Positions 26,917-33,025 of a stretch of DNA of 64,000 nucleotides are shown in pieces; positions within the stretch are counted from its first letter, which is position 1, and each line of letters begins with the position of its first letter. Under the pieces are notes generated by a model. The model searched no databases, was not told where the DNA came from, and was given only the letters and a program-made list of their open reading frames with translations. The position numbers and the translations under genes were made by a program. Source of the stretch: Halorussus caseinilyticus (GTDB taxonomy: Archaea; Halobacteriota; Halobacteria; Halobacteriales; Haladaptataceae); assembly GCF_029338395.1 (NCBI RefSeq), contig NZ_CP119809.1, positions 744,001 through 808,000 of the forward strand, read 5' to 3'.

Positions 26917-27444
26917 TCAGCCACAGCGTGGCGACTCACTCCGCGGCGCGAGGCTGACGACGCGGGTGTCGCCGTAGGTCGTTTCGGCGTGGCGTTCGTG
27001 GTGGCCGACCAAACAGAAGTCGGGGCCGAGGGCGTCGAGGAGTTCGTCGATTCGCTCGCACCCAGCGTCGTAGCCGTAGTAAATCAGACCGTGGGGCGCT
27101 TCGTGGGTCAAGAGTACGTCCACGTCTTCGACCCGCTTCAGGCGCGCTACGTCCTCGCGGACGAAGTGGCGTCGGCGCTCGCCCGCGAGGTCCGCGCGCG
27201 ACTCGTCGTACTTCGTCGGCGCGTAGTTGCCCGAGAGACCCGCCACGCGCAGGCCCTCGACTTCGGCCGCGGTACTGGCGAGCAGGCGGGCGTTCCGGAC
27301 GGTCACGCTCGCGGGGTCGTCGCCGCGCCGGAGGGCGTCGATGGCGTCGAAGTCCTCGTTGTTCCCGGCGACGAAGTAGGTCGGGACCGGCAGGTCGCCC
27401 GTCTGCAACGCGGCATCGGCGTGGGCGTCTCCGAGGACGAGCAT
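26917..27444 (-). CDS. Degenerate YfcE-like metallophosphoesterase (paralogue 1)
   Basis: 175 residues from the ATG at 27444 (MLVLGDAHADAALQTGDLPV). It is a close paralogue of the gene at 27981 (NNEDFDAIDALR, EVEGLRVAGLSGNYAPT, VLLTHEAPHGL, ETTYGDTRVVSLA shared). Compared with that copy it lacks about 19 residues after GDAHAD and about 5 after GDL, and its C-terminus ends in an unrelated SPRCG. The metal-ligand motifs GDAH, GDL, GNNED and HE are still present. It may be folding-defective or a shortened variant. Confidence 0.65.
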   Translation of the reverse strand: MLVLGDAHADAALQTGDLPVPTYFVAGNNEDFDAIDALRRGDDPASVTVRNARLLASTAAEVEGLRVAGLSGNYAPTKYDESRADLAGERRRHFVREDVARLKRVEDVDVLLTHEAPHGLIYYGYDAGCERIDELLDALGPDFCLVGHHERHAETTYGDTRVVSLAPRSESPRCG

Positions 27445-27980
27445 CGCCGGATACTCGCCGGGGACGGACCTAAACGCTGTGGCTTGCCGGAGTCCGTCCC
27501 GACCCTCCACCGGACCGCGCTCGGACCACCGACCACGGGACGCGCCGCGTCTGCGCTCGCGCCTGCGGTTCCGCGCGAGCGCAGACGCACGCGGGGAGGA
27601 ACGGGGGCGCGGTGCTGTGCGGTTGCGTTGCGGTCGGCGGTAGCGGTGCGGTTGCGGTCTTCATCGGCGTCGGCGATAGTGCAGTCGGCGGTGCGGTTGC
27701 GGTCTGATTAGCTCCCAGAGATACGGACTCGCTGGTTCGCGGTCGGCGGCAGTCAACGAACGACGACAATCAGCGACCAGCAATAGTCAGCAAACGACGA
27801 CAGTCAACGAACGGCAACAGTCAGCGAACAGCAACAGTCAGCGAACGACGACAGTCAACGGCGCAGTGCGGTCGGCCACGCCGCGGGACTGCGCCGCGCC
27901 ACGGGCGCCGAAAGAAATCTCAACAAGTCTAAGAGCAATCTATATCTATCTAAAGAGTATCTAGAAAATTCTCAAAGCAT
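27445..27980. repeat. Hairpin-type interspersed repeat, copy A, with a tandem array
   Basis: No gene. Positions 27547-27562 and 27573-27588 form a perfect 16-bp stem with a 10-base loop. The module GCGGGGAGGAACGGG follows at 27591. From 27538 to 27720 the sequence matches 44130-44405 in inverted orientation. Positions 27752-27853 hold six 17-base units with the pattern GTCARCGAACRRCRACA. Positions 27905-27975 are strongly AT-rich. The region separates the two phosphoesterase paralogues. Confidence 0.75.
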
Positions 27981-28622
27981 TTACGAGGAAGGCGTCGAAT
28001 AGGAAGTCAGTTCCAGCGTCTCGGGGTTCAAGTCGTAGTAGCGTTCGCCGACCGCGGCGAGACTCACGACGCGGGTGTCGCCGTAGGTCGTCTCGGCGTG
28101 TTCGTGGTGGTGGCCCACCAAGCAGAGCCGTGGCTCTAGCGCCTCCAGCAACCCGTCGATGTGTTCACACCCCACTTCGTAGGACTCCTCGACCGGCAGG
28201 CCGTGGGGCGCTTCGTGGGTCAGGAGTACGTCCACGTCCTCGACTTGTTTCAGGCGCTCTACGTCCCCGCGGACGAAGTGGCGTCGGCGCTCGCCCTGTA
28301 GGTTCGGGCGGGGGCGCTCGAACTGGGTCGGAGCGTAGTTGCCCGAGAGACCCGCCACGCGCAGGCCCTCGATTTCGACCGCCTCGTCGGTCAGCAGGTG
28401 GGCGTTCGTGACCGCGGAACTCTCGACGCGGCCGTGTCGGAGGGCGTCGATGGTGTCGAAGTCCTCGTTGTTTCCGGCGATGAAGTAGGTCGGAATCGGC
28501 AGGTCGTAGTAGAGCAGGTCGCCCAACTGCAAGGCGACATCGGCGTCGGCCTCGCGGTAGGCGGCGAACAGTGCGCGCCGATTGTCGGGGTCGTCGGCGT
28601 GGGCGTCTCCGAGAACGAGCAT
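27981..28622 (-). CDS. YfcE-like metallophosphoesterase (paralogue 2, complete)
   Basis: 213 residues (MLVLGDAHADDPDNRRALFA). The metal-ligand motifs are complete: LGDAHAD, LQLGDLLYYDLP, IAGNNEDFDTID, LLTHEAPHGL, LVGHHHEHAETT. It belongs to the small YfcE/MJ0936 class of phosphodiesterases. A close, deleted copy lies 536 bases further left in the same direction, so a tandem duplication is evident. The C-terminus here (YYDLNPETLELTSY) is the intact one. Confidence 0.88.
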   Translation of the reverse strand: MLVLGDAHADDPDNRRALFAAYREADADVALQLGDLLYYDLPIPTYFIAGNNEDFDTIDALRHGRVESSAVTNAHLLTDEAVEIEGLRVAGLSGNYAPTQFERPRPNLQGERRRHFVRGDVERLKQVEDVDVLLTHEAPHGLPVEESYEVGCEHIDGLLEALEPRLCLVGHHHEHAETTYGDTRVVSLAAVGERYYDLNPETLELTSYSTPSS

Positions 28623-28746
28623 TAATCACCGGTTCGTCGGTCGGAAAGATAAAACCCACTCTCGGGCGGCGGTTCCGGGCGTGATGATTTCGAGCGGGAA
28701 GTGACGTGACTGAAATATATCGTAACATAGAGATACGACTGCCGCG

Positions 28747-28752
28747 TTTACA
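28747..28752 (+). promoter_or_regulatory. Putative TATA box of the ART cassette
   Basis: TTTACA sits about 22-25 bases upstream of the GTG at 28772, the spacing expected for a leaderless haloarchaeal transcript. The region 28690-28750 is AT-rich with more candidate boxes (AAATATATC near 28712). Confidence 0.35.
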
Positions 28753-28771
28753 CGCTCGAAAGTAGAGAACC

Positions 28772-29833
28772 GTGTCAGACCCAGAAGAGGCCCGTGATAG
28801 TACTCTCTCCCCGCGCTTCGACTGTAGAGGTGCGACGGACTACGAAGCCGAATACGGACTCAACCTCGCTGATACAGACCCGCTGACTTACCGCTCGGAG
28901 TTCTGTGACGAGTTCGGTCGAAGAGCGGAGTACGAGGCGTTGTCGTTCAAGGAGGAGTGTCGCCTCCTCAGCGCGCTCGGTGACGTTCACGACCCGCGAA
29001 ACGTCTGTCGAGTTCTCGACGCGCATTACCGCTGGAAAGTCTCTTCGAATCCGCGAGAACACGACCATCCACAGCGTCACGAACACCTGTTCAAGGAGAC
29101 GTTCGGGGTCGATTGTGACGTTCGTGGAGAGAATCCTCCATCGGACCGACCCGATTCGGAAGACTGCGCGGTCGCCGGGGACCTGTACTGCGTGACGCAA
29201 GCGTTTCTCGACCGGACGGTCGGGTCGGAGTTGACCGTGTATCGCGGCCTGTCGCGCAACGCCTCGACACTCGTCGCGCAGGCACTCCGCGCGGAGACGC
29301 AACCAGTGTACGAAGTGCGCGCGACCGTACTCAAGAACTTCACGGCCTCCGAAGCGTTCACGTCCTTTTACAGCCCCCTCGTCCTTCGGCTCGACGTTCC
29401 GCGCACGGCTATCGCTATCGCGGCCGACCATCTCGTCAAGCATCGGGAAGACGGCAGTCCCGCCGAACGGGACGCCGAGTATCGAGTTTTCGGTGACGAA
29501 ATCGGGACTGTCCGTCCCCGCGATATCTACTTGTACGTCGATGAGGAACGGACTTCGTTATTCGATTTTCTCGCAACGAAGGAGTCGTTCACGAGGGCAG
29601 AACATCTGTGTTACGTCGATGCGATACGCCACTTGGCGGAAAGCGACGAACGAATCACGGACGACCCCGGTTTCGCTCGGATTGCAGATTGGTACGGAAC
29701 GCTCGCAACCGACGAATACGAGTTCGCAGAGGCCATAGAAGGAGTGGTTAATTACGTCGTCGGGCGGGCGAACGAACTTCCGCGTGATTGGAACGAAGAC
29801 GTAGCGGCGAAGTTCGGAGCGAAACGCATCTGA
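28772..29833 (+). CDS. Putative ADP-ribosyltransferase (ART-fold) protein, cassette gene 1
   Basis: 353 residues. I see an R-S-E type ART signature: LTVYRGLSRNAS with Arg158, VLKNFTASEAF with the STS-like Ser193, and ERDAEYRVFGD with a D-x-E (Asp234, Glu236). About 150 residues come before the catalytic part and may be a regulatory or pore-blocking domain, with EYEALSFKEECRLL and QRHEHLFKETFG. There is no signal or membrane segment, so it would act in the cytoplasm. It heads the three-gene cassette and shows lower GC and looser codon use than its flanks. A toxin role is inferred from the domain and the neighbours; the target is unknown. I rate the ART call moderately, by motif only. Confidence 0.55.
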   Translation: MSDPEEARDSTLSPRFDCRGATDYEAEYGLNLADTDPLTYRSEFCDEFGRRAEYEALSFKEECRLLSALGDVHDPRNVCRVLDAHYRWKVSSNPREHDHPQRHEHLFKETFGVDCDVRGENPPSDRPDSEDCAVAGDLYCVTQAFLDRTVGSELTVYRGLSRNASTLVAQALRAETQPVYEVRATVLKNFTASEAFTSFYSPLVLRLDVPRTAIAIAADHLVKHREDGSPAERDAEYRVFGDEIGTVRPRDIYLYVDEERTSLFDFLATKESFTRAEHLCYVDAIRHLAESDERITDDPGFARIADWYGTLATDEYEFAEAIEGVVNYVVGRANELPRDWNEDVAAKFGAKRI

Positions 29834-29884
29834 ACAAAACGTATAAGACTGTCGGAGATAAATACGAACGTAAGAGACCCACTT

Positions 29885-30463
29885 ATGTCGGACGAGGAAC
29901 CCACGATTACGGTTGACCTCCGCAACGAGAGCGAAGAGTGGGTTCAGTACGCGAAAAATCGGAAAGCGTCGCGCTCGGAGATAGAGGTGGACGAACAATC
30001 GCTCGAAACGGAGACGAGGCGGAAACTCCAGAGGGCTATTCGCCAATATCTCGAAAGTTTAGACAACGATGTTCTCGACATCTCGACGTGTTTCGACCTT
30101 TCGGACAACCAGCTTTTCGACAGACTCGCCGGAATCGTCGTCCGACAGGTGCGGAACGTCGAGACCGTCCGGAACGACGTGCAGAAACGACTCCAGGCCG
30201 ACGAGAGCGTCTCGGCGTTCGAACTCCCGAAACGAACCCGCGAGGCGACGGCGGAGTACCTCGTCGAGGAAGCGATCGGAAAAGCCGAAATCCGAAGCGT
30301 GGCGGACCGCCTCCTCGACAAGGAACGAGAGACGCTCGACACCGAACGATTCGGGACCGACACGTCATCGACGGAGACCAACTGGGCTTCGGACGGGATA
30401 TTTCGGATGACGGAGGGAGTACGGACGGTCGAAAACAGAACTCGATTGAACAGTCGGGGGTAA
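29885..30463 (+). CDS. Helical protein of unknown function, cassette gene 2 (candidate antitoxin)
   Basis: 192 residues, mostly helical (RRKLQRAIRQYLESLDNDV, FDRLAGIVVRQVRNVETVRN, TREATAEYLVEEAIGKAEI). It has no recognised domain. The C-terminus is less structured and holds a hydrophobic-aromatic stretch (NWASDGIFRMTEGV), the kind of segment that chaperones bind in TAC antitoxins. It starts 51 bases after the ART gene and has its own TATA-like sequence (GTATAAG near 29840). The antitoxin assignment rests on position and size only. Confidence 0.6.
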   Translation: MSDEEPTITVDLRNESEEWVQYAKNRKASRSEIEVDEQSLETETRRKLQRAIRQYLESLDNDVLDISTCFDLSDNQLFDRLAGIVVRQVRNVETVRNDVQKRLQADESVSAFELPKRTREATAEYLVEEAIGKAEIRSVADRLLDKERETLDTERFGTDTSSTETNWASDGIFRMTEGVRTVENRTRLNSRG

Positions 30464-30515
30464 CGAGAGGGCGCGTCGGCCCGTTCAACGGCACTACTTC
30501 TACGACGAACAACGA

Positions 30516-30992
30516 ATGAGACCAACAGAGTACCACATCACCGACTTGGATTTGTTTCTCTCGGAGATTTCTCCGGGTCAGACGCGTCCCGCGCGGACGA
30601 GATTCGAGATATCGTACAGTAGCAACCCGCAGTACGAAACCGACATCGGTGCGTTCGTCGCCGCCTTCGAACTTGAAGCGCAACTGTACGAGAGTGAGAC
30701 CTCCACGGCCGAAATCGAAGGGTCTGCCGACCCCGCGGGCACCATCGAATGTCAGTTTCTCGTTATTGTCAAGGGAAACAGAGAGGAGTTCGAGTCCGTG
30801 TTAGAAAAGTGGAAAGACGACGGTTACAACACCGTATCCTCCGACTTCCGTGCCCATCTGGAGGAGGGAATCACGGACGAAATCGTCGTGCCGATAGCGG
30901 GTCTACTGCGCCCATCGTATCGCGGTTTAGTTCCCAGTCTGCGGGCGAGCGACGACCTCGCGGAGCCATCCGTAACGGACGACCGAGAGTGA
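30516..30992 (+). CDS. SecB-like protein (putative), cassette gene 3
   Basis: 158 residues. The order of elements follows SecB: beta strands EYHITDLDLFLSEIS and TRFEISYSSNPQYETD, then AFVAAFELEAQLYES, a third strand GTIECQFLVIVKGN, then a helix EEFESVLEKWKDD, an Arg in the SDFRAHLEEG position and the hydrophobic IVVPIAGLLRP tail. SecB is a bacterial export chaperone that is rare in archaea; SecB-like proteins serve as the chaperone of toxin-antitoxin-chaperone systems. The match is my reading by eye and needs a structure or profile search. It starts 52 bases after gene 2. Confidence 0.45.
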   Translation: MRPTEYHITDLDLFLSEISPGQTRPARTRFEISYSSNPQYETDIGAFVAAFELEAQLYESETSTAEIEGSADPAGTIECQFLVIVKGNREEFESVLEKWKDDGYNTVSSDFRAHLEEGITDEIVVPIAGLLRPSYRGLVPSLRASDDLAEPSVTDDRE

Positions 30993-31281
30993 GTCCTCCC
31001 AGACGAAGCCCGTCATGTCGGGAAAATATAGTACGAACACCGACGTGAGGCAGGTATCGCACCCTGCGCAAAGACTAAGTTCGCGGCGGTTAGTGAGACG
31101 AGTATGCACGCCGACGCCGCCGCGGTCGGACGCGCTTTTTCGGCCACTGGCGGGTCGGTCGGTTTTTCGGGGCTGAAACGCACAAAACCCGGTTACTGAT
31201 AGGTCCTCGGCGGCGTGGCGACCCGTCGTTGGCCGTACTCGTTCTGCACCGCGCGCCGACCAGTCCCGAACACGACGCAAC
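30993..31281. other. Cassette right boundary and dapA upstream region
   Basis: No gene. A sequence at 31082-31098 (GCGGTTAGTGAGACGAG) resembles the tandem unit at 11811-11862 with one change. The region between about 31190 and 31281 is the presumed promoter of the lysine operon, but I see no convincing TATA box. Confidence 0.4.
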
Positions 31282-32184
31282 ATGACACGTACCGACGAAC
31301 CCTTCAGTGGGGTCTACCCGGCGATGACGACCCCCTTCGACTCCGACGACAGTATCGACTTCGAGCAACTTCGCGCAGACGCCCGGCGACTCGCGGACGC
31401 GGGCGTAGGCGGCCTGCTGGCGGTCGGTTCGACCGGCGAGAGCGCGACTCTGACCCACGACGAACACGTCGAAGTCGTGGAAGCAGTCACCGACGCCGTG
31501 GACGTTCCGGTCATCGCGGGTTCCGGAAGCAACTCCACTCGCGAGGCCCTCGAACTCTCGCGGCGCTCTGCGGACGCCGGGGCCGACGCCCTGCTTCTCA
31601 TCTCGCCGTACTACAACAAGCCCGAACCCGAGGGGATGGAGAACCACTACCGGACCGTCGCCGACGAGGTTGACCTGCCACAAATCGTCTACAACGTCCC
31701 GTCCAGAACCGGGCGCAACGTCGCCGTCGAGACCGTCGCTTCGCTCGCCGAACACGAGAACATCGCGGGTTACAAGGCCGCAAGCGGCGACCTGAACCGA
31801 ATCGGCGAGGTGATAGAGCGCACCCGCGAGGAGAACTTCTCGGTTCTCTCGGGCGACGACTTCCTCACGCTCCCGTTGCTGTCGCTCGGCGCGACCGGCA
31901 CCATCAGCGTCTCGGCGAACGTCGAACCCGAGCGCACCGCGGCGCTGGTCGAGGCGGCGCTGTCGGGCGACTACTCCGAGGCCCGCGGGATTCACGAGGA
32001 ACTCGCGCCGCTGGTCCGCGCGCTGTTCTCCGAGACCAACCCCATCCCGGTCAAGGAGGCGATGGAGATTCGGGGCTACGGCCCGGCGCGCCTGCGCTCG
32101 CCGCTGACCCGCCTCTCGGCGGAACCGCGGGCAGAACTTGCGGGAATCCTCGGTGAGTTAGAGGGGCGACCCGCTGGAATATAG
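31282..32184 (+). CDS. dapA: 4-hydroxy-tetrahydrodipicolinate synthase
   Basis: 300 residues. It condenses pyruvate with aspartate semialdehyde, the first committed step of the diaminopimelate-lysine pathway. Motifs: FSGVYPAMTTPFDSD, VGGLLAVGSTGESATLT, LLISPYYNKPEPEGM, PQIVYNVPSRTG and the Schiff-base Lys in IAGYKAASGDL. It is the first gene of a tightly packed lysine operon; dapB starts two bases after its stop. Confidence 0.95.
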   Translation: MTRTDEPFSGVYPAMTTPFDSDDSIDFEQLRADARRLADAGVGGLLAVGSTGESATLTHDEHVEVVEAVTDAVDVPVIAGSGSNSTREALELSRRSADAGADALLLISPYYNKPEPEGMENHYRTVADEVDLPQIVYNVPSRTGRNVAVETVASLAEHENIAGYKAASGDLNRIGEVIERTREENFSVLSGDDFLTLPLLSLGATGTISVSANVEPERTAALVEAALSGDYSEARGIHEELAPLVRALFSETNPIPVKEAMEIRGYGPARLRSPLTRLSAEPRAELAGILGELEGRPAGI

Positions 32185-32186
32185 CA

Positions 32187-33025
32187 ATGAGCGTAGCTAT
32201 CGCAGTAACCGGCGCGACCGGTCGGATGGGTCAGGCAGTCCTCGCGGCCGCGAGCGAACGCGAGGACGTGACCGTCGCGCTCGCAGTCAACCGCGACCCC
32301 GACCCTTCCGGGGCGGAGTCGGCCGACGGAGACGCCGACAGGTCGGCGTCGGTCGCGGGCGTCCCGGTCGAACCGGCCTGCGAGTTCGACCGACTGCTCG
32401 CCGAACGCGACCCCGATGCCGTCGTGGACTTCACAGGTCCCGCGAGCAGTCAGAACTACGTCGCAGTCGCGGCCGAGGCCGGAGTCGCAAGCGTGGTGGG
32501 AACGACCGGATTCGACGACGAGGGCGAGCAGGCGCTCCGGGAACTCGCCGAGTACGCGCCCGTCCTGAAGGCCTCGAACTTCGGCCGCGGCGTCCACGCC
32601 CTGCTGTCGGCGGTCGAGTCCGCGGTCGCCGACCTGCCGGGCTACGACGTAGAGATTACCGAGACCCACCACAACCGCAAACGCGACGCCCCGAGCGGGA
32701 CCGCCAAGACGATTCTGGAGACCGTAGAGGACGCGCGCGCCGACTCCGGCGCGCGCGTCCACGGCCGAGAAGGAGAAGCCCCCGCGAAGCGGGAGAAATC
32801 GGCGTCCACGCCCGCCGTGCGGGGGCCATCACCGGCGAACACGAAGTCCTGCTGGCTGGCAACCACGAGGAGGTCCGACTCACCCACCGCGCCGAGGACC
32901 GCGGCGTCTTCGCCGAGGGAGCAGTGGACGCGGCGGTTTGGCTCGCAGGCCGGGACCCCGGCTGGTACGACTTCGCGGACGTAGTGGCAGGGCAAGAAGC
33001 AATCGAAGGGAGTGACCGACGATGA
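32187..33025 (+). pseudogene. dapB: 4-hydroxy-tetrahydrodipicolinate reductase with a frameshift
   Basis: The gene reduces HTPA to tetrahydrodipicolinate with NAD(P)H. The N-terminal fold (IAVTGATGRMGQAVL), KASNFGRGVHALL and the catalytic THHNRKRDAPSGTAKT are intact. After GREGEAP the frame breaks at a run of five C (32779-32783), and the expected continuation GEIGVHARRAGAITGEHEVLL, VRLTHRAEDRGVFAEGAV and VVAGQEAIEGSD lies in the shifted frame to 33025. One more C restores 279 residues. The stop of the shifted frame overlaps the dapD start (ATGA). A sequencing error or recent mutation is more likely than a programmed shift. Confidence 0.85.

Follow-up and report, generated by a model that had tools for sequence, protein, structure and literature searches.

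A three-gene cassette of Halorussus with a SecB-like gene: a candidate archaeal toxin-antitoxin-chaperone system

Here we describe a three-gene accessory cassette in the genome of a haloarchaeon of the genus Halorussus and propose, with a probability of about 0.62, that its last gene (30516-30992, forward strand) encodes the chaperone component of a toxin-antitoxin-chaperone (TAC) cassette of archaea. All coordinates refer to the window, that is, the whole stretch of 64,000 nucleotides that was analysed. The proposal draws on the relatives of the encoded protein, on the fold matches of one of them, on the composition of the cassette, and on the purifying selection acting on the gene. The open reading frame runs from an ATG at 30516 to a TGA stop at 30990-30992 (158 codons), and both the coordinates and the peptides quoted for it in an earlier note on this DNA were exactly as described, the peptides being found in the translation. 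Among four Halorussus genomes compared, divergent pairs gave dN values of 0.11-0.17 vs dS values of 0.83-1.5; given this low dN relative to dS, the open reading frame is a real, conserved gene under purifying selection, and selection was detected on all three cassette genes.

The cassette comprises a gene for an ADP-ribosyltransferase (ART)-like protein of 353 aa (28772-29833), a gene for a 192-aa protein of unknown family (29885-30463), and the SecB-like gene, all on the forward strand. This order is fixed in four Halorussus genomes, with the genes co-directional and separated by short gaps. Inspection of the upstream intergenic region (28623-28771, forward strand) revealed an AT-rich TATA-like stretch, likely the operon promoter, and one 9-nt inverted repeat (28688-28696/28753-28761). 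The whole unit (28671-31048, forward strand) lies with sharp boundaries between the genes for a phosphoesterase and dapA, which are adjacent in ten Halorussus genomes where the three cassette genes are absent. When one such empty site (L069) was compared by BLASTN, it aligned with 28500-28670 and 31049-31400 with just 7 nt between, and six further empty sites (L066, L068, L070, L073, L078, and L079) gave similar results, which identifies the cassette as an accessory mobile unit of exactly three genes. In another Halorussus genome (G014; L084:6191-9187) the same site is occupied by ABC-transporter genes and a gene for a Tat-signal protein, so this may be a hotspot for insertions. PADLOC found nothing on the cassette. 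Two observations concern the flanking genes. dapB (32187-32992) is frameshifted, with residues 1-188 in frame 3, residues 192-258 in frame 2, and the switch near 32784-32791, through either a sequencing error or a real mutation. Relative to the paralogue next to it, a second phosphoesterase copy (26917-27510) lacks an internal segment close to the N-terminus and is probably decaying.

Orthologues of the SecB-like protein at 73-76% identity are encoded in three further Halorussus genomes, so that only 4 of 18 Halorussus genomes carry the gene. The source genome (G000) encodes a second copy (30% identity, E 3e-17), a protein from a MAG belongs to the same family (E 9e-12), and a profile search extended the family to four more haloarchaeal genera, with an additional member on a Halomarina plasmid, for a total of about ten haloarchaea. 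Weak class-wide profile matches in four genomes fell inside aspartyl-tRNA synthetase genes, as assigned by translation (G215, G275, G387) or by likeness (G226), and were discarded. Relatives were not found in the viral contigs or the phages scanned, while on plasmids the family occurs only in a second type of module, described below.

The earlier note had recognised SecB by the order of strands and helices, and had proposed an HMM search with a SecB profile. That search was negative, Pfam SecB (PF02556) matching neither the window protein nor nine relatives at E<=10, and a PF02556 search of the whole source genome was silent while E. coli and other controls were positive. When the family was compared by hhalign with a profile of eight SecBs, the score obtained was also reached by 55 of 150 column-shuffled profiles. 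An alignment of RGLVPSLRASD with RGTFPQLNLAP, attractive at first, was rejected because its score lay at shuffle level and a reversed profile scored higher; a direct hhalign/HMMER comparison with Rv1957 was likewise spurious, lying at the shuffle maximum and aligning an unrelated octapeptide. Neither the SecB-like protein nor the 192-aa protein gave a usable match when scanned against Pfam, NCBIfam, PHROG, and PADLOC. By sequence, then, the protein is not identifiable as a SecB, none of these tests having been positive.

Fold comparisons point in another direction. AlphaFold models of the window protein and of a 28%-identical relative (L029) were each built from a three-sequence alignment. In the window protein's model, which is of low confidence (pLDDT 63.6), strands at residues 8-17, 26-30, 46-59, and 75-86 are followed by helices at residues 89-106 and 109-131, in agreement with the SecB element order that had been read from the sequence (four strands, then two helices). 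The element order of the L029 model, also of low confidence (pLDDT 56.4), is SecB-like as well. Foldseek found no SecB match with the window protein's own model. With the L029 model as query against 350,542 PDB chains, the Rv1957-ChAD complex ranked first (E 0.008, probability 0.66; runner-up E 0.21), and in a viral structure library a phage SecB, second in rank (E 0.01), led in probability (0.63). The TM-scores of the L029 matches are low (0.22-0.26, and 0.23-0.26 at most to Rv1957), as poor models would lead one to expect, and both low-confidence models are without the C-terminal helix that follows the helix-connecting loop in SecB. The low-confidence fold match of the 28%-identical relative, together with gene context, makes a SecB fold of the 158-aa protein probable, not proven; for the window protein itself, we infer the fold from this relative.

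The 353-aa protein encoded by the first gene matches phrog_24083, a phage family, at E 4e-6, and its relatives do so at up to 2.3e-9; the sole Pfam family that it touches is DRAT, below threshold (E 0.044; three members). A candidate R-S-E signature consists of R158 (VYRG), an N-F-T-x-S motif past the next strand, and E236. Both R158 and E236 are invariant in 10 homologues, six of which are only 20-27% identical, while R158 lies within a (Y/H/S)RG motif, the S-T-S motif is only partly kept, and the DRAT matches remain below the cut-off. Going by the sub-threshold Pfam matches and this reading of motifs, the protein reads as an ART of the R-S-E type, and we propose it as the toxin. The six distant homologues occur in other haloarchaeal genera. 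Two of them (L050:7181-9504 and L051:7216-9532) are followed by a gene of 92-94 aa and then by an ADP-ribosylglycohydrolase (PF03747, E 7e-66 and 6e-61). ADP-ribosylglycohydrolases of the DraG family are the natural erasers of ADP-ribosylation, and these two loci likely represent ART/eraser toxin-antitoxin pairs in haloarchaea. Two other homologues, again from other genera, have an antitoxin-like gene of 184 or 220 aa downstream and no chaperone gene. At one of these two loci (L047:4796-10686), the ART homologue and its antitoxin-like gene adjoin a gene with an ApeA N-terminal domain (E 1.7e-31) and a HerA-like ATPase gene, and the locus looks like a defence island.

In Halorussus, the gene for the 192-aa protein is always directly downstream of the ART-like gene, and this position, along with distant relatives of 184 and 220 aa (25% and 17% identity), marks the protein as the putative antitoxin. 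All four genomes with a SecB-like gene encode a 38-residue C-terminal tail on it (residues ~155-192; 30347-30460, forward strand), which contains an invariant Trp (W167), ends in TRLNSRG, and may be a ChAD-like segment, given that tail and chaperone occur together. In Halorussus G015, the same site holds a 352-aa ART and a 166-aa antitoxin whose homology ends at residue 154, with neither the tail nor a SecB-like gene; it is the single chaperone-less Halorussus homologue. The extension is thus found only where the chaperone gene is found, with G015 as the single contrasting case. In bacterial TACs, the C-terminal ChAD is confined to chaperone-dependent antitoxins, and its removal restores chaperone independence (PMC5105189). 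The joint absence in G015 is what one would expect were the 158-aa protein to serve the tail, although in this single case one accidental deletion could explain both losses. The G015 locus also offers a natural tail-less, chaperone-less control.

Under the TAC reading, the first gene would encode an ADP-ribosyltransferase toxin and the second its antitoxin, destabilised by its own tail of ~38 residues. The SecB-like protein would bind this tail and allow the antitoxin to fold or escape proteolysis, so keeping the toxin silent. Anything that removed, diverted, or blocked the chaperone, such as a virus, would cause the antitoxin to fail, and the freed ART would modify a host target (RNA or protein) and arrest the cell. 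The toxicity, chaperone dependence, and antiviral role of the cassette are all presumed.

The order of a TAC operon (toxin, antitoxin, SecB-like chaperone) is found in four genomes, provided that the ART-like protein is the toxin and the 158-aa protein is SecB-like. Should the latter assumption fail, the cassette would be a two-gene ART toxin-antitoxin system whose third gene specifies an antitoxin co-factor or second immunity protein of a non-SecB fold, the likeness arising from a common layout of all-beta followed by helices. The lack of detectable sequence similarity to any SecB tested fits this explanation, as does the failure of the window protein's own model to match a SecB; yet two independent structure libraries single out Rv1957 and a phage SecB for L029, the SecB-like family is also tied to an unrelated winged-helix module, and tail and SecB-like gene are lost together, and we regard a non-SecB co-factor as unlikely, if worth serious consideration. 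It is more doubtful still that the cassette is a DraT-like regulatory ADP-ribosylation switch (cf. nitrogenase control) with the 192-aa protein as regulator and the 158-aa protein as scaffold. Such a switch would suit the fact that DRAT alone among Pfam families is touched by the first protein, and that a DraG-family glycohydrolase follows in two relatives, but an accessory, patchy, mobile distribution fits conflict systems better than housekeeping control, as does the proximity of one relative to ApeA/HerA-like genes.

Of the two alternatives offered in the earlier note, a TAC chaperone or a distant SecB, the former is much better supported, the gene standing third in its operon and L029 being closest to Rv1957. 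A true secretion chaperone placed downstream of an ART gene by chance could draw on the SecB-type fold match and on MJ0357 of Methanocaldococcus jannaschii, an archaeal protein reported as a SecB homologue (PMC4361572). Against it, the gene is present in few Halorussus genomes, inside an accessory cassette, and SecB-like genes always adjoin toxin-like or regulator genes; furthermore, archaea are without SecA (PMC4361572), so that an export SecB would have no partner here for hand-off. We consider this explanation very improbable. The accompanying statement that archaea normally lack SecB holds across the 295 genomes sampled in the phylum, but not for M. jannaschii, whose genome matches the Pfam SecB model as a control. 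MJ0357 and the Halorussus protein would both be SecB-type proteins in an archaeon, whereas only the latter escapes that model.

Comparison with known systems supports a TAC-like organisation with different parts. CmdTAC (PD-T4-9) of E. coli ECOR22 is an mRNA-ADP-ribosylating antiphage system (PMC9519451, PMC11618068) with which the Halorussus cassette shares the order of ART toxin, poorly conserved long-tailed antitoxin, and SecB-like chaperone, as well as an accessory distribution, the comparison being one of layout and published description between a bacterial host and an archaeon; no link to CmdTAC emerged at the sequence level. CmdT, however, belongs to the diphtheria-type ARTs and has the triad H-Y-[EDQ] (PMC11618068), which was not found in the Halorussus protein, where the invariant R158 and E236 read as an R-S-E arrangement and a resemblance to DraT is seen; the cassette is an analogue of CmdTAC, not a member. 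HigB1-HigA1-Rv1957 of Mycobacterium tuberculosis likewise combines a toxin, an antitoxin with a C-terminal ChAD, and a SecB-like chaperone, the last being the top fold match of L029, and the conserved W and basic residues of the Halorussus tail recall the ChAD motifs WHRLSSYR and WARHISVR (PMC5105189). There, in contrast, the toxin is the mRNA-cleaving HigB rather than an ART-like protein, and the Halorussus antitoxin has no recognised HTH, nor does the 158-aa protein have significant sequence similarity to Rv1957. With DraT/DraG pairs, the cassette has in common the weak DRAT similarity of its ART and two distant haloarchaeal homologues beside an ADP-ribosylglycohydrolase, but 192-aa and SecB-like proteins take the place of the glycohydrolase.

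A second haloarchaeal module contains a SecB-like gene in different company. At five loci (L011, L030, L032, L033, and L062; for example L030:7182-8937 and L062:3657-5486), it lies behind a gene whose product combines a winged helix (MarR/HxlR match, E about 1e-6) with a C-terminal tail, the two genes overlapping by 4 bp in most, and the pair adjoins a divergent gene of 180-240 aa with a conserved HI(F/L)GPY motif, whose product is possibly nucleotide-processing. The arrangement is that of HigA1-Rv1957, in which an HTH antitoxin with a tail is paired with a SecB-like chaperone. Plasmids of Halobellus limi and of Halomarina carry the module too; at L031 a transposase replaces the divergent gene, and beside the SecB-like paralogue of the source genome (L007) a winged-helix gene was not found. 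The association of one SecB-like family with two unrelated partner sets fits a transferable chaperone module.

The limited literature searched on SecB or TAC in archaea or haloarchaea held no archaeal TAC system, and our results suggest that toxin-antitoxin systems under chaperone control, until now known from bacteria, are in use in archaea too. A wider proposition, for which we see the case as evenly balanced, is that archaea own chaperone-addicted systems of at least two kinds that are unrelated to each other (one of ART, novel antitoxin, and SecB-like protein; the other of winged-helix antitoxin, SecB-like protein, and divergent effector gene) served by a SecB-like family that sequence profiles have missed, and that these may be antiviral sensors. 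If the TAC reading is right, chaperone addiction of toxins would reach archaea and involve a new pair of toxin and antitoxin, there would be a branch of SecB that Pfam does not see, and a role would be explained for a SecB-type protein in organisms without SecA. One member of the second module (L033:8662-9423) carries a C-terminal extension of ~90 residues that is unseen in other SecB-like proteins of the family.
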